From assembly GCF_000153225.1 (NCBI RefSeq), contig NZ_CH724148.1, forward strand, positions 872,640 to 936,639: a stretch of 64,000 nt of DNA, given 5' to 3'. The stretch is from Polaribacter irgensii 23-P. GTDB taxonomy: Bacteria; Bacteroidota; Bacteroidia; Flavobacteriales; Flavobacteriaceae. Of this stretch, positions 14,926 to 21,209 are shown piece after piece; the first letter of the stretch is position 1, and each line of letters begins with the position of its first letter. The position numbers were made by a program, and so were the translations under genes. The notes under the pieces are model-generated. The model was given only the letters and a program-made list of their open reading frames with translations. It was not told the origin of the DNA and searched no databases.

Positions 14926-15255
14926 TTAAAGTGAAAATGATTCTCCACAACCACAAGTTCTGCTTGCGTTTGGGTTATTAAAAACAAAACCTTTTCCGTT
15001 TAATCCTCCGGAATACTCTAAGGTTGTTCCAACTAAATATAAAAAACTTTTTTTGTCGATAATAATTTTTACGTCATTCTCTTCAAAAACTTTATCGTTT
15101 TCTTCTTTTTTATTGTCGAAAGTTAAATCGTAAGATAGGCCTGAACAGCCGCCACTCTTTACGCCAACTCTAACATAATCTGTAGCTGCGTTAAAGCCAT
15201 CGTCAGTCATCAACTCTACGACCTTCTTCTTCGCTATGTCTGAAACTTTTATCAT
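14926..15255 (-). CDS. sufA: A-type Fe-S carrier protein (HesB/IscA/SufA family)
   Basis: Carrier that delivers Fe-S clusters to apo-proteins. It has 109 residues from the ATG at 15255 (MIKVSDIAKKKV). The three cluster-binding cysteines are present: GGCSGLSYDL and the C-terminal RTCGCGESFSL. A longer frame begins at 15297, but the promoter box at 15287-15294 lies inside it, and the extra 14 residues are not family-like. It is the first gene of the suf operon. The exact paralog name (SufA, IscA or ErpA) cannot be fixed from sequence alone; SufA is chosen from context. Confidence 0.93.
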   Translation of the reverse strand: MIKVSDIAKKKVVELMTDDGFNAATDYVRVGVKSGGCSGLSYDLTFDNKKEENDKVFEENDVKIIIDKKSFLYLVGTTLEYSGGLNGKGFVFNNPNASRTCGCGESFSL

Positions 15256-15286
15256 ATGATTAAGTAGATTAAAACTAAATTGTTTA

Positions 15287-15294
15287 CAAATATA
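15287..15294 (-). promoter_or_regulatory. -7 promoter box of the sufABCD operon
   Basis: TATATTTG on the minus strand, 31 bases before the ATG of sufA. No clear -33 TTG. Confidence 0.55.
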
Positions 15295-15361
15295 CAATAT
15301 AAGTAGATGAAAAACGAAGAACCCTCATTACGAAACACAATATGTCAATTGGTTTTATTGA

Positions 15362-16420
15362 TCACTTTTTAAAGTCAGGATTTTGCACAAATTCAGAGTC
15401 TGATAAGCTCCGTAAAAAGGCTTTTAAGTTTGTTTTTTCCTGAGGAGATAATTGAACGCCTCCCTCGTTCACTTGTTTCATAAGCGGGTCTATTGTAAGC
15501 GATTTTTTCAGGCCTTCAGAATAATGATTGATCACTTCTTCTAAGGTTGCAAATCTACCGTCATGCATGTAGGGTGCTGTAAAATTTAAATTGCGAATAG
15601 AGGGTGTTTTAAATTTTCCATTGTCATTAGGATCTCCTGTAACAGCTCCCAGGCCAAGATCACTAAAATGAGTATCTAAGCCGTTATTGTGAAATTTATT
15701 ATCTGTCCAAAGTGGGTTATTATTACTTCCATGGCAATGAAAACAGTCTCCTTTTGATTCGTCCATGAAAACGTCGAATCCATTTTGTTCTTCTATTGTT
15801 AGCGTTGTTTCGCCACGTACATATTTATCGAATTTAGCATTGCCAGAGATCAGTGTTCTTTCAAATTGTGCAATGGCTTTTGTAATTAAAGTAGAATCAA
15901 TTTTTGAGGAGCCAAACGCGTTAAGAAAAAGATCTTTGTATATCGCATTATTTTCCAATTTTTCTCCAATATTTTGCCAGTTTGAATGCAATTCTATCGG
16001 GTTTGAAACAGGTTCTAAAGCTTGTCTTTCAAGGCCGAATTCTTTTCCGTCCCAAGCAAAGCGTTCATCAAAATTCCAAGCTAAATTAAATAAAGGCATG
16101 GCATTTCTCGATCCTAAATTACCTTCAATTCCCGTGCTAAACGGCTGTTGGTCTGTAAATGATTTTTGTGGATTGTGACAAGAAGCACAAGATTGTGTTT
16201 CGTCTCCAGACAAAATGGGGTCAAAAAATAACTTTTTACCTAAGGCAACTCCTTCAATGGTTAATGGATTGTCTGCTGGAATTATTGGTGGAATTAATTT
16301 GTCTGAAAAAAGGGTTGGAATTTTTAAACGATACGGAGTGGGCGCGTAGCGTTCGTCTTCTTTTGATGTGCAGTGCATCAAAAGGAAAAAACAGGAGAGG
16401 AATACATATTTTTGTACCAT
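15362..16420 (-). CDS. Di-heme MauG/cytochrome c peroxidase family enzyme, MbnH-like
   Basis: A 352-residue exported lipoprotein with two c-type heme sites, CASCH (78-82) and CFHCH (226-230), the pattern of bacterial di-heme peroxidases and MauG. The C-terminal half carries GKFKTPSIRNLNFTAPYMHDGRF, conserved in the family (split here: KTPSIRNL and APYMHDG). The signal peptide ends at Cys17 with an unusual LMHC lipobox. The mature start is C-TSKEDE, which fits the Bacteroidetes surface-export rule (lysine followed by acidic residues). It is the last gene of an operon, 16 bases after an MbnP-like gene. Such pairs are known as MbnH-MbnP, where the di-heme enzyme oxidises a tryptophan of the partner. 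A plain peroxidase role is the alternative. Confidence 0.88.
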   Translation of the reverse strand: MVQKYVFLSCFFLLMHCTSKEDERYAPTPYRLKIPTLFSDKLIPPIIPADNPLTIEGVALGKKLFFDPILSGDETQSCASCHNPQKSFTDQQPFSTGIEGNLGSRNAMPLFNLAWNFDERFAWDGKEFGLERQALEPVSNPIELHSNWQNIGEKLENNAIYKDLFLNAFGSSKIDSTLITKAIAQFERTLISGNAKFDKYVRGETTLTIEEQNGFDVFMDESKGDCFHCHGSNNNPLWTDNKFHNNGLDTHFSDLGLGAVTGDPNDNGKFKTPSIRNLNFTAPYMHDGRFATLEEVINHYSEGLKKSLTIDPLMKQVNEGGVQLSPQEKTNLKAFLRSLSDSEFVQNPDFKK

Positions 16421-16436
16421 TTTTAAGTTTTTGGTG

Positions 16437-17168
16437 TTAGTTTACGATACCCAAAGAAAACACCGTTTTTCCATTGTCTCGCATTATTTTTTGCGCTTGA
16501 AAATTTGGCATTAAAACAGTGTTTAGTTCGTTTAAGTTCCAAGTATTTGGATTTTTAAACCATTCTGCTAAGTTCATTTTTATTTCAATCTTGGCATTAT
16601 TTGTAATAAGTACAGAACCTAAATCTACTTCAAACGAAGTATCTTCAAATTTTAAATTGTCAGGGTCAGTATTGTCAACAGCTCTAATGGCGTGGTAATT
16701 AAAGCCAAGTGCGTCGTTGTTATCGTTCCGGTATTTTCCATCAAACTGCATGTAATGGTAACCACCGCCTAGCATTGTAGGAACCCCAAAACTTACAGAA
16801 TTTAAATCTTTGTAAATTCCATCTGTATTGTCTTGATCGGAAAAACCAAATCTAAAAGTGAGGTGGTATCGATTTTCGGCAAGTCCGGAAATAGAGAGGG
16901 AAGTACCCGTGTTTTCATGAAAATTTATCAAATGATAGTTTTTGAAATCAGTCAGACTCAGGTCGGAAATAAGATAACGCAATTTTTCAACACTTATATT
17001 TTCACCATTTTCTGTCGTGAATTTCAATTGGTTGAGGTCTTGATTGGAAAGAACCTTGCCGTTCCAATGGTGAGTGAAATTAACGACCACACTGATATCC
17101 TCTTCTTTAGGGCTACAAGACGAAAAAAGAAGCATTAAGAAACATAAAAAAGCAATGTTGTTTTTCAT
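16437..17168 (-). CDS. MbnP-like copper-associated lipoprotein
   Basis: A 243-residue lipoprotein (Cys18, FSSC lipobox). The mature start C-SPKEED has the lysine-acidic signal expected for surface display. I recognise the MbnP fold from VVVNFTHHWNGK near the N-terminus, KLRYLISDLSLTD, GGYHYMQFDGKY and NYHAIRAVD. In characterised MbnP a tryptophan is oxidised to kynurenine by the neighbouring di-heme enzyme and helps bind copper. Tryptophans here are in HHWNG, LAEWFK and NTWNLN, and I cannot tell which is equivalent. It overlaps the preceding propeller gene by 4 bases, indicating coupled translation, and lies 16 bases before the MauG-like gene. No methanobactin genes are present, so the role here is not methanobactin handling. 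Confidence 0.85.
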   Translation of the reverse strand: MKNNIAFLCFLMLLFSSCSPKEEDISVVVNFTHHWNGKVLSNQDLNQLKFTTENGENISVEKLRYLISDLSLTDFKNYHLINFHENTGTSLSISGLAENRYHLTFRFGFSDQDNTDGIYKDLNSVSFGVPTMLGGGYHYMQFDGKYRNDNNDALGFNYHAIRAVDNTDPDNLKFEDTSFEVDLGSVLITNNAKIEIKMNLAEWFKNPNTWNLNELNTVLMPNFQAQKIMRDNGKTVFSLGIVN

Positions 17169-18493
17169 TTAAGTTGAAGTATTAAGGCATCTGTAAATCC
17201 TTTGTTTTCAGAAATATCTTGATCGGAACTGCTACTCTCTCCAACAGCGATAATCGATTTATTGTTGAGTTCTACAACATCATATAAAAAGTCTATTTCG
17301 GAACCGCCAATTGTTTTTTGCCATAAAAGATTTCCGTTTTCATCAATTTTTAAAATGAGGGCATCATTCTGACCTTTATTTTCAAAGCGATTGTCTAAAC
17401 TTCGGGAACTTCCTGCAATTAAAAAACCAGGGTCTTGTGTTTTAAAAATAGCGCGTCCAACATCAAAATTGGACCCTCCAATTGTTTTTTCCCAAATTGC
17501 GTTTCCTTCTGCCGAAAATTTTACAATCCAAATATCTGCAGCACCGTAATTTAGTGCAACATCAACGTCTGAGCTTCTGGTATCTCCAACAACAATGAAG
17601 TTGCCATCGCTGGTTGCTGTAATTGCATAGGCTTGGTCAATTGCAGACCCTCCAAAACTTTTTTCTAAAAGCAAATTTCCTATTGGACTTATTTTTGTTA
17701 CCCAAAAATCGTAACTTCCTTTATTGTTAGAAATATTAAAGTCGTTGCTGTCTGAAGAGCCAGCAATTATAAAATTATGATCGTCAGTTTCTATGACGCC
17801 TGCTGGGATTTCTGTAAACGATCCACCAAAAAACCGACGCCATTCTAAGGTGCCCACATGGTTTGTTTTTATTGCCCAATAATCTCCACCTGCATGCTGT
17901 ATTGCTGTAGATTTTGCATTTCCTTGGCCGCCAGAACTAGAGACATCTAGCACACCAGTAATTAGAAAACCACCGTCTTTCGTTTCTAGCAAAGCAGTTC
18001 CAAAATCTGCGCCAGAAAAGCCGAAGGTTTTTTCCCAGAGAAGATTTCCTTCAGTAGAGATTTTTAACAACCAAAAGTCTTTATTTCCAGCATTTTCTGA
18101 AACGTTGCTGTCTGAACTTTTACGGTACCCCAAGACTGCGAAATTACCATCTAGCGTCTGTATCACATCTGCCGCTCTATCGTCCTCTGTGCCTCCAAAA
18201 GTTTTTTGCCACTCTAAAGTGTTTTCCGAAGAAAATTTTGAGACTAGAAAATCAAAAGAGGCGTTTGTTTTTGCAGTCATATCAAAGTCGTTACTTTGCG
18301 TAAAACCAGCGACAATATATCCACCGTCTGTGGTCTTTGTCACAGATGAAAGAGCTTCGTTTTTAGAGCCTCCAAAAGTTTTTACAAGAGAAACATTGGC
18401 ACCAACTTGGATAATTTCAGGAATTTCAAACACGTCTTTTTTTGAGCAACTGCTTAAAAAAGCTAAGGTAAATATGAGCACATATTGTTTCAT
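17165..18493 (-). CDS. Seven-repeat beta-propeller-like lipoprotein
   Basis: 442 residues; lipobox LSSC with Cys16 and mature start C-SKKD. The rest is seven copies of a 50-60-residue unit with the pattern W-x-K-T-x-GGS near its start, then TxDGGFIVAG, then SxDxD, then D-x-W-x-x-K. The copies start at VKTFGGS, WQKTFGGT, WEKTFGFS, WRRFFGGS, LEKSFGGS, WEKTIGGS and WQKTIGGS. Seven copies fit one closed propeller on the cell surface or in the periplasm. No enzyme motif is seen; a binding scaffold is likely. It sits between the choice-of-anchor B gene (13 bases) and the MbnP-like gene (4-base overlap). Confidence 0.8.
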   Translation of the reverse strand: MKQYVLIFTLAFLSSCSKKDVFEIPEIIQVGANVSLVKTFGGSKNEALSSVTKTTDGGYIVAGFTQSNDFDMTAKTNASFDFLVSKFSSENTLEWQKTFGGTEDDRAADVIQTLDGNFAVLGYRKSSDSNVSENAGNKDFWLLKISTEGNLLWEKTFGFSGADFGTALLETKDGGFLITGVLDVSSSGGQGNAKSTAIQHAGGDYWAIKTNHVGTLEWRRFFGGSFTEIPAGVIETDDHNFIIAGSSDSNDFNISNNKGSYDFWVTKISPIGNLLLEKSFGGSAIDQAYAITATSDGNFIVVGDTRSSDVDVALNYGAADIWIVKFSAEGNAIWEKTIGGSNFDVGRAIFKTQDPGFLIAGSSRSLDNRFENKGQNDALILKIDENGNLLWQKTIGGSEIDFLYDVVELNNKSIIAVGESSSSDQDISENKGFTDALILQLK

Positions 18494-18506
18494 TTGTAGT
18501 GCGTAA

Positions 18507-19730
18507 TTATTTTTTTCTAATTATAAAAAAACCATTATTAATGTCGCTAATGATAATATTACCACTTGGGAAATATGGATAGACGTTCCAAACACCATTA
18601 AAATTTGCATTATTATTTTCGGGGTACGTGTCAAAAAAACCAACTTCTGAAAATACTTTGTTTGCAACGTTGGATACATCAATCATTCGCACACCCGCCG
18701 TATAATTGGCTTGGTAATAAATATTGTCTTTTACATATCCGTTGTGATCTATGGCATTTGTACTTCCAAGGTAATCAAAATGATAAACAGGAGTGTCCAA
18801 ATCGGTAAAGTCGAAAATAATAGATCGGGTTTTGTTTCCCACTTGCAATTCATCCAGTTCATCTCCGAGAATAAAATATTTTAAATCTTCAGTAAACCAG
18901 CCTTGATGCGCATATTTTACATTGGCGTAACTTATGGTAGAAATTATTATCGGATTTTTTTTATCACTAACATCTGCAAGTACTACCTCGTTTTCATTAC
19001 TGCCAATTAAGATTTCTTTTCCGGTGTATGCTTTATCTGGACCAGTGTATATAAGTACTTGTGCATCGTGTGAATATCCCCCTTCGCGAAATCCTCCCTC
19101 AATTATCGGGTTTAAAGGGTTTTTAATATTTATAAATATAGGACCACCGCCAAAGGTTGAGTTTCTAGCAGCTCCAACAATGTATGCGTAGCCACTATCT
19201 TCGTTAATTATAATATTATGAGCGCTTCCAAATTCGGTGAAATGGGTATCTGCTGTAAAATTTACTGGAGTGTTTGAAACATCTCTTAAGCGTTTCAGGT
19301 CAAAAACTTGCATACCATGGTTTCTAGCTTCACTTACAATAAATGCGTGAGAATTAAATACTTTTACATCTCTCCAAGCACTATTTACTGTGGCCGTTTT
19401 TAAAATACCTAAAATTACAGTGTTTGAAGTATCTGTAATATCAATAAATACAATGCCTTTGTTGGTGCCCATTAAGGCATATTCTTTGTTCGTTTCTTTA
19501 TCTGTCCATCCCCAAGAATCATTGCCCTCAGTGCCAGGGCCTGCTAATTCTGCTAAGCTGTAATGGTTTAGTAAATCATAGTCATTGCAAGGGTACTCTC
19601 CTGCAAATCCGTTTTCACAAGCAGCAATAGGGACGTAAGTTGGCTGAGAGTGTATACTTAAAGTATCATTGTTATTGCTGCAATTAAGAATAATTAAGCA
19701 GCAGCAAAATAAAATTGTCTTTTTAAACAT
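18507..19730 (-). CDS. Choice-of-anchor B family lipoprotein (LVIVD repeats)
   Basis: About 407 residues from the ATG at 19730 (MFKKTILFCCCLIILNC), a lipoprotein signal ending at Cys17. The body has LVIVD-type propeller repeats: GIVFIDITDTSNTVILG, MQVFDLKRLRDVSN, VVLADVSDKKNP, VRMIDVSNVANK. These are typical of the choice-of-anchor B family found with varied cell-surface anchors in Bacteroidetes. The frame extends to 19757, but a promoter box at 19746-19753 lies within that stretch and decides the start. First gene of a four-gene operon with the propeller, MbnP and MauG-like proteins. Function unknown; probably a surface binding or scaffolding partner. Confidence 0.85.
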   Translation of the reverse strand: MFKKTILFCCCLIILNCSNNNDTLSIHSQPTYVPIAACENGFAGEYPCNDYDLLNHYSLAELAGPGTEGNDSWGWTDKETNKEYALMGTNKGIVFIDITDTSNTVILGILKTATVNSAWRDVKVFNSHAFIVSEARNHGMQVFDLKRLRDVSNTPVNFTADTHFTEFGSAHNIIINEDSGYAYIVGAARNSTFGGGPIFINIKNPLNPIIEGGFREGGYSHDAQVLIYTGPDKAYTGKEILIGSNENEVVLADVSDKKNPIIISTISYANVKYAHQGWFTEDLKYFILGDELDELQVGNKTRSIIFDFTDLDTPVYHFDYLGSTNAIDHNGYVKDNIYYQANYTAGVRMIDVSNVANKVFSEVGFFDTYPENNNANFNGVWNVYPYFPSGNIIISDINNGFFIIRKK

Positions 19731-19753: not shown

Positions 19754-19757
19754 CCAA

Positions 19758-20159: not shown

Positions 20160-21209
20160 ATGTTAGAAGATAAAAACACACAAAAAACATCCTTAGCGGA
20201 TCTTGGCGAATTTGGTTTGATAAATCATATTACACAATATTTTAATATTGAAAATAGCTCTACAATCAAAGCAATTGGAGATGATGCTGCAGTTTTAGGG
20301 GCTTCCGAAAAACAAACACTAGTTACTACAGATTTGTTGATTGAAGGAGTGCATTTTAATCTAGGCTATATGCCGTTGAAGCATTTAGGGTATAAAGCAG
20401 TGATGGTAAACTTGTCTGATGTGTACGCAATGAATGGTGTTGCAGAGCAAATTACAGTTTCAATTGCGGTTTCTAATCGTTTTTCTTTGGAGGCAATTGA
20501 AGAATTATACGCAGGAATTCAATTGGCTTGTGAAACCTATAAAGTTGATTTAGTTGGGGGAGATACAACTTCTTCTACGAAAGGAATGTTAATTTCTATT
20601 ACGGCAATTGGAAAAGTAGAGAAAGAAGACATTGTATACAGAAGTGGTGCAAAAGAAACAGACTTAGTGGTTGTCTCTGGAGATTTAGGAGCTGCATATT
20701 TAGGATTACAAGTTCTAGAAAGAGAAAAACAAGTTTTTCAGGTAGATCCTAATAACCAACCAGATCTTGAAAATTATACTTATTTAATAGAGCGTCAGTT
20801 AAAACCAGAAGCAAGAAAAGATGTTGCAAGTTTGCTAAAGGGGATGGAAATAAAAGCTACATCAATGATTGATATTTCTGACGGACTTTCGTCAGAGCTT
20901 ATGCATATCTGTTCGCAATCTAAAGTTGGATGTAAAATTTATGAGGAGAAATTACCATTAGATCCGCAAGTAATTTCTGCTTGTGAAGAATTTGAGTTAG
21001 ATTCTACGATGGTTGCTTTAAGTGGTGGTGAAGACTATGAATTGCTTTTTACAGTGGCAATTGCAGATTTTGATAAAATTAAAGGAAATCCTAATTTTTC
21101 TGTTATTGGTCATATAACAGCAGAAAGTCAAGGGTTAAATTTGGTTACGAGAGCAGGTCAAGAAATTGAATTAAAAGCACAGGGCTGGAATACAAAAAGA
21201 GAGCAGTAA
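20160..21209 (+). CDS. thiL: Thiamine-monophosphate kinase
   Basis: ATP-dependent last step to thiamine pyrophosphate. 349 residues, family length. Motifs: AIGDDAAVLG near residue 40 (metal/ATP site), MVNLSDVYAMNG, VGGDTTSS, MIDISDGLSSELMHI and GGEDYELLFT. It starts MLEDKNTQKTSLADLGEFGLI, where the LGEFGLI segment is the usual N-terminal helix, so the start fits. The promoter box is immediately upstream. The next gene, an MFS transporter, begins 37 bases downstream and is probably cotranscribed. Confidence 0.96.
   Translation: MLEDKNTQKTSLADLGEFGLINHITQYFNIENSSTIKAIGDDAAVLGASEKQTLVTTDLLIEGVHFNLGYMPLKHLGYKAVMVNLSDVYAMNGVAEQITVSIAVSNRFSLEAIEELYAGIQLACETYKVDLVGGDTTSSTKGMLISITAIGKVEKEDIVYRSGAKETDLVVVSGDLGAAYLGLQVLEREKQVFQVDPNNQPDLENYTYLIERQLKPEARKDVASLLKGMEIKATSMIDISDGLSSELMHICSQSKVGCKIYEEKLPLDPQVISACEEFELDSTMVALSGGEDYELLFTVAIADFDKIKGNPNFSVIGHITAESQGLNLVTRAGQEIELKAQGWNTKREQ

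Follow-up and report, generated by a model that had tools for sequence, protein, structure and literature searches.

An MbnP/MbnH-like gene pair in a propeller lipoprotein operon of Flavobacteriaceae retains its di-heme enzyme where the known target tryptophan of the partner is replaced

MauG is a di-heme enzyme that oxidises a tryptophan of its partner protein at a distance. According to what Manesis and colleagues are said to have shown in 2021, MbnH likewise converts a tryptophan of MbnP to kynurenine, with copper(I) held by a nearby His and Met; the first tryptophan of a WxW motif is what we take to be the converted residue. The presence of MbnP genes has been read as evidence of widespread kynurenine-containing copper sites. 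The MbnP/MbnH gene pairs are conserved far beyond the producers of methanobactin, as the available part of PMC3621798 describes them, and methanotrophs possess a surface analogue, CorA/CorB, with kynurenine and copper(I) (PMC3912023, available in part). Here, we follow up a locus in a stretch of 64,000 nt from Polaribacter irgensii 23-P (positions 872640 to 936639 of contig 1; genome size 2.76 Mb), hereafter the window, for which an earlier note had proposed a four-gene surface operon built around an MbnP/MbnH pair. The operon proved to consist of four almost gapless minus-strand open reading frames (ORFs), all encoding lipoproteins, in the order ChB (choice-of-anchor B family), SBBP (an SBBP-repeat propeller), MbnP-like and MbnH-like. 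While the pair is strictly kept in the lineage, in the window protein Phe127 stands in place of the tryptophan known to be oxidised.

The closest described system is the MbnP/MbnH pair of Methylosinus trichosporium (7L6G and 6e1c, respectively), with which the Polaribacter locus shares the gene pair itself, the MbnP fold, a conserved His in the partner, and a di-heme enzyme with an inter-heme Trp and a Tyr at the ligand position. In contrast, Phe and Val replace WxW in the window protein, the two proteins are lipoproteins with export-like signals beside two propellers, there is no MbnB-type gene, and neither protein reaches the curated family of its methanotroph counterpart (TIGR04039 and TIGR04052; see below). 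A surface protein encoded in one operon with a di-heme MauG-like partner is also what CorA/CorB and MopE/SACCP of methanotrophs have in common with this locus, judging from the available part of PMC3912023. CorA and MopE, which show no marked sequence similarity to MbnP in the portion of PMC3621798 at hand, have a copper site with kynurenine, the precursor of which is present, whereas the known MbnP site is Phe in the window protein.

The identity of the pair as given in the earlier note was borne out at the levels of family, fold and active site. The MbnP-like protein matches PF20243 with 75 bits (cut-off, 27), yet gave no match to TIGR04052, the WxW copper-binding type. Its AlphaFold model, built on a 51-sequence alignment, has a predicted local distance difference test (pLDDT) value of 91.7; with Foldseek, the sole matches at E values up to 0.001 were three chains of 7L6G, and VIA-align gave 7L6G a Z score of 15.4 (root mean square deviation 3.8, 207 residues aligned) versus 6.8 for the next entry. 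On these two comparisons, the modelled protein has the MbnP fold. A sequence search of the PDB with the window MbnP or a profile of its subtype returned no match, and CorA and MopE are unnamed among the fold matches listed for the model, no direct comparison with them having been made.

The MbnH-like protein scored 193 bits against PF03150 in a family scan and 262 bits against TIGR04039; this latter score lies under the curated cut-off of 363, so we label the protein MbnH-like, closest to MbnH. MauG is less similar (TIGR03791, 195 bits; cut-off, 444). In a sequence comparison with the PDB, the best solved relative was Methylosinus MbnH 6e1c with 187 bits; the highest scores among the listed peroxidases and among MauG entries were 137 and 102, respectively. 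Both heme motifs read in the earlier note, CASCH and CFHCH, are present. That note had also named the ligand positions as the place where an ordinary peroxidase and a MauG-type enzyme would part. Cytochrome c peroxidases carry Met at the position concerned, and MauG-type enzymes are poor peroxidases. The window protein has Tyr300 there, not Met, and Tyr300 and Trp123 align with the Tyr and Trp of 6e1c; presumably they represent the MauG-like distal ligand and the inter-heme Trp, respectively.

The partner protein departs from this picture exactly at the known site. Both a profile-profile alignment of the two MbnP types and an alignment of 7L6G with WxW-type MbnPs place Phe127-Gly-Val129 of the window protein at the WxW motif. 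For a view across the family, we compared 142 MbnPs from 140 loci of Flavobacteriaceae, 103 of them beside SBBP (operon type), 37 paired with MbnH but without SBBP, and two alone. Among the 103 operon-type proteins, 68 have Trp and 35 have Phe at the first motif position; at the second, 87 have Val and 16 have Trp. WxW is invariant in the 37 paired MbnPs without SBBP, and is also found in 28/28 further short loci (two of which are repeats). Five of the proteins in the operon slot are members of WxW-type pairs on a separate branch; the remaining 98 carry a GGGYH(Y/F)M-like sequence, after which we call them the GGGYH type. Together with the two lone MbnPs, 97 of these 98 form one clade of 99 (Shimodaira-Hasegawa-like approximate likelihood ratio test, 99), a short row (L165) having been dropped from the trees. 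WxW, WxV and FxV all occur inside this clade, where the first position needs at least three changes between W and F on a tree built with the motif columns omitted (99 rows). The replacement of the target Trp by Phe has probably happened more than once.

Loss of WxW by chance or through misalignment was ruled out by the two alignments, the graded WxW/WxV/FxV series and the changes on the tree. Similarly, a second, canonical MbnP that might serve the window's enzyme was ruled out, as the genome has one PF20243 match and one MbnH-like match (E 1e-30). With Phe at the known site, kynurenine is excluded there, and the earlier note's proposal that the pair forms it at this place is, on the sequence, refuted for the window protein. 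Of the operon-type MbnPs, 98/103 also lack the Met that usually precedes the first Trp by two residues; since five WxW-type MbnPs of the window's own genus have Leu at that position (L141, L142, L143, L145 and L150 in our locus numbering), this Met is no firm mark, and its absence weighs little. Seven MbnP relatives from outside the Flavobacteriaceae keep Met-x-Trp but not the second Trp.

Conservation of the MbnP tryptophans, on which the earlier note had made its proposal depend, thus has two sides: the canonical ones are not conserved, while three others are. Trp35, Trp203 and Trp210 are present in 92, 93 and 98 of the 103 operon-type MbnPs, respectively, and are invariant in the 51 close relatives of the window protein. 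His159 is invariant in 103/103 operon-type and 37/37 other paired MbnPs. Tyr137 is, like His159, conserved in both MbnP types, whereas His138 and Met140 are particular to the operon type.

No comparable erosion was seen in the enzyme. All 93 GGGYH-type MbnHs adjoining an MbnP retain the two CxxCH motifs, Trp123, His286 and Tyr300, irrespective of whether the partner carries FxV (31), WxV (51) or WxW (11); that is, the heme-site residues checked are intact in 31/31 enzymes next to a Phe127 partner. As a separate observation, a third MbnP/MbnH type exists in which MbnP keeps WxW and MbnH is without the Tyr300 and His286 positions (9/9; loci L084, L086, L087, L089, L091 and L093 to L096); the upstream neighbour of one such pair (661 aa, L086 only) matched no Pfam family. 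In another locus (L098), the gene next after an MbnP-MbnH pair encodes a YHYH-domain protein that carries a secretion-system C-terminal sorting domain.

To what extent the pair is retained as such can be read from genome samples of the genus, family and order, which are evenly drawn subsets rather than every species. In the family sample (199 Flavobacteriaceae genomes from 198 genera), the GGGYH-type MbnP occurs in 61 genomes and the matching MbnH (at least 425 bits) in the identical 61, all of which fall within the 99 genomes with an SBBP match (at least 220 bits). Type membership was taken from the loci read, with one genome (G124) assigned by scores alone; eight high-scoring MbnP matches read as short loci were all of the WxW type. 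In the genus sample (n = 97), all 70 SBBP genomes also have MbnH and a PF20243 match, and two more have MbnH without SBBP, in one case with a stop codon. MbnH has been relocated yet kept in at least six genomes (G203, G207, G243, G244, G281 and G282), whereas two genomes without SBBP and without an operon-type MbnH (G215 and G290) have a lone, decaying MbnP, one of which has the otherwise invariant His159 changed to Tyr. One genome (G202; 3% contamination reported) has SBBP, MbnP and MbnH each twice, on two contigs.

The four-family arrangement, whose recurrence the earlier note had left to be checked, is repeated across the Flavobacteriaceae far above chance, and 74 of 80 named relatives have SBBP, MbnP and MbnH in a row. 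Beyond the family, SBBP orthologs become scarce: a match at E 1e-60 was found in 11 genomes of the order sample (n = 196), six of them within the family and the other five weaker and all in one genus of another family. In 7/7 related short loci from outside the family, MbnP adjoins MbnH with no SBBP, and an SBBP search of these seven genomes at E 1e-20 found none in six. WxW-type pairs of other Flavobacteriaceae have the same MbnP-MbnH order and superfamily as the Polaribacter pair; they differ in keeping WxW and mostly have other neighbours, with six genomes having one inside the propeller operon.

These surveys reverse the roles that the earlier note had assigned, in which the propellers were accessories of the pair. 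Besides the 61 genomes with a GGGYH-type pair, the 99 SBBP genomes comprise the six just mentioned with a WxW-type pair in the operon slot and 32 without a pair there. We read 20 of these 32 loci; ChB and SBBP are present in all 20, neither MbnP nor MbnH adjoins them in any, and each retains at least one of the two operon borders. On this evidence from gene content, the two propellers are the constant core of the operon and the MbnP/MbnH pair a removable module, gained or lost as one. In an SBBP tree (84 rows), the 20 pair-less loci group as a single clade, and no fewer than four changes are required among the three states; the tree being unrooted, gain and loss of the pair look alike on it.

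Distance correlations were computed over 82 loci and corrected for thiL and sufB. The value for MbnP and MbnH is 0.411 (95% interval, 0.30-0.51), that for MbnP and SBBP is 0.42, and that for MbnH and SBBP is 0.555 (0.47-0.63).

For the location of the four proteins, the available part of PMC5080379 gives C-X-K-(D/E)2-X as the optimal Bacteroidetes surface-export (LES) signal and states that position matters. The earlier note had read such a signal in the N-termini of the window's MbnH and MbnP; in both, Lys stands at +4, one place later than the optimum, so the match is a loose one. At the family level, however, the N-termini are export-like. Counted by alignment column over operon-type loci, SBBP (n = 96) fits the signal best, with K or R at +3 in 57% and acidic residues at +4 and +5 in 59% and 70%, respectively; MbnP (n = 99) is acidic in 78% at +4 and in 80% at +6, with MbnH (n = 95) and ChB (n = 75) falling in between. 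Surface exposure of the operon lipoproteins is likely, as far as such signals predict it.

An enzyme that is kept while its target Trp is gone leaves two options: it modifies some other residue, or it has a different function. While pair identity, fold, operon structure, co-retention and heme-site residues can be read from sequences, for the mechanism we infer the following. Our leading reading, held tentatively and at a little less than an even chance, is that the MbnH-like enzyme still oxidises the MbnP-like protein, at a residue other than the known Trp site. The enzyme, being MauG-like, would use peroxide through a high-valent two-heme state and would act on its partner at the cell's outer surface, and the oxidation would mature a metal site in the MbnP-like protein, probably for copper. 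With Phe127 at the known site of the window protein, the modified residue would most likely be one of three tryptophans (Trp35, Trp203 and Trp210) or an aromatic side chain within GGGYH(Y/F)M. This reading draws on the identical sets of pair genomes within the SBBP genomes and their counterpart in the genus, on the retention of relocated MbnHs and the decay of MbnP where this MbnH and SBBP are gone, on the intact heme sites beside Phe127, on the finding of no canonical WxW partner in the window genome, and on the invariant tryptophans and export-like N-termini. Several observations weigh against it. Trp35, Trp203 and Trp210 might have purely structural roles, and both lone MbnPs still retain their tryptophans with no such MbnH in the genome. 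In addition, no change in MbnH was found to accompany the loss of Trp127, and since MbnH tracks SBBP at least as well as it tracks MbnP, MbnP may not be its sole partner. A more specific proposal, which we consider possible but hold with more doubt, is that this MauG-family enzyme generates a protein-derived cofactor of a kind not yet described, located at Trp35, Trp203 or Trp210 or at one of the aromatic residues of GGGYHYM. The surface lipoprotein bearing it would act together with the two propellers, one of which may have a four-His metal site of its own.

If the enzyme does something else, it might be a surface hydrogen peroxide peroxidase for which MbnP serves as electron donor or metal holder without being covalently changed. 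Membership in the cytochrome c peroxidase/MauG superfamily would fit, as would the finding that the canonical target can vanish while the enzyme stays; the ligand-position Tyr that the enzyme shares with 6e1c points the other way, and we regard a peroxidase as unlikely, though a serious contender. MbnH could also oxidise an operon propeller or an outside substrate instead of MbnP: its correlation with SBBP is at least as high as that with MbnP, and a GGGYH-type pair was never seen without SBBP in the 199 genomes. However, 32 of the 99 SBBP genomes have no operon-type MbnH, we found no Trp column separating SBBPs with and without the pair, and the pairs outside the family do without SBBP altogether in six of seven genomes, all of which makes this reading improbable.

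That MbnP no longer needs maturation, binding its metal via His159 and residues of GGGYHYM while MbnH is kept for another role, agrees with the conservation of His159 and Tyr137 in both types and of His138 and Met140 in the operon type. Such a role for MbnH would nevertheless have to explain why this type of MbnH and MbnP is co-present or co-absent in all 199 genomes, and we hold it to be quite improbable. The canonical scheme, with kynurenine made from the MbnP Trp and binding copper on the surface, agrees with the identity and fold of the pair and could hold in the species behind the 68 operon-type MbnPs that keep the first Trp. For the window protein, with Phe127 and Val129 in place of the two tryptophans, it fails, with the missing upstream Met as a further point of low weight, and as a general account of the operon it seems to us very improbable indeed. 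A methanobactin operon, finally, was rejected: the genome has no match to PF05114, the MbnB-type gene, in keeping with the earlier note, which had seen no methanobactin genes.

As far as the open literature tells, three things are new: the operon with its propellers, the strictness with which the pair occurs together, and the retention of the enzyme where its target Trp has been lost. Our search of that literature returned no description of the propeller operon, although the primary MbnH and MbnP papers may discuss Bacteroidetes pairs, and on choice-of-anchor B, flavobacterial SBBP, MbnP in Bacteroidetes and the metallo-mystery pair it returned a single entry, PMC10269597. Given that the pair is strictly kept in a large, common lineage where the residue is gone, gene presence alone is no predictor of kynurenine. 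The flavobacterial lineage is a natural experiment on the range of modifications open to MbnH-type enzymes, and this surface operon of marine flavobacteria is now directly testable.

Table 1. Genes and key codons of the propeller operon and its borders (positions within the window)
Feature	Position	Strand	Basis
ChB, beta-propeller lipoprotein (choice-of-anchor B family), the operon's first gene	18507..19730	-	TIGR04312
SBBP-repeat propeller lipoprotein	17165..18493	-	NF047494 (below cut-off), CylK matches
MbnP-like lipoprotein, GGGYH(Y/F)M subtype	16437..17168	-	PF20243, model, 7L6G fold match
Phe127 codon (TTT), position of the first Trp of MbnP WxW	16788..16790	-	alignments
His159 codon	16692..16694	-	invariant in 103/103 operon-type and 37/37 other paired MbnPs
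Trp35 codon, candidate alternative oxidation site	17064..17066	-	92/103
Trp203 codon, candidate alternative oxidation site	16560..16562	-	93/103
Trp210 codon, candidate alternative oxidation site	16539..16541	-	98/103
MbnH-like di-heme MauG-superfamily lipoprotein	15362..16420	-	TIGR04039, 6e1c, CxxCH x2
Tyr300 codon, distal heme-ligand position	15521..15523	-	aligned with Tyr of MbnH 6e1c
sufA-like gene, usual downstream border	14926..15297	-	PF01521
thiL-like gene, usual divergent upstream border	20160..21209	+	AIRS domains

This outer-membrane lipoprotein operon of Flavobacteriaceae lies between suf genes and a thiL-like gene (Table 1). ChB and SBBP are separated by 13 nt, SBBP and MbnP overlap by 4 nt, the gap between MbnP and MbnH is 16 nt, and the sufA-like gene lies 64 nt from the MbnH-like gene. 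The genes beyond the latter border are presumably sufB, sufC and sufD, and thiL is likewise the name we assume for the AIRS-domain gene. The ChB coordinates are counted from an ATG; the ORF list also has a TTG start upstream, at 19757. When 72 upstream regions, among them that of the window operon, were scanned for a Bacteroidetes promoter consensus, one match was obtained, in L225. A plasmid collection searched with the window MbnP gave no match.

As to the propellers themselves, SBBP shows seven 'GG'-type repeats, read straight from the sequence, and has CylK matches; its score against the LipL53 family NF047494 is 64 bits, far under the cut-off of 400. Its ortholog adjoins ChB across the Flavobacteriaceae. 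His200, which lies in a conserved loop, does not vary in any of 122 SBBPs, pair present or not. The pair-less SBBPs (L282 to L301) have three extra invariant His (20/20; columns of window residues 138, 162 and 164), which lack conservation where the pair is present; these 20 make up a single clade.

ChB matches TIGR04312 with 568 bits, and its AlphaFold model (pLDDT 89.8) has propeller matches. The best Foldseek match of this model is a Sphingobium phosphotriesterase, with which WD40 proteins tie in VIA-align, so no function can be deduced for ChB; a search of the PDB with a ChB profile gave no convincing match. Four histidines (171, 221, 275 and 329, counted from the ATG), about one blade apart, are invariant in 132 aligned ChBs from operon loci (132 of 148 ChB matches, after a length filter) and could make up a central metal site. 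Some operons have tandem ChB genes, with two to four copies among the loci listed (L036, L038, L053, L055, L058, L059, L077 and L082).

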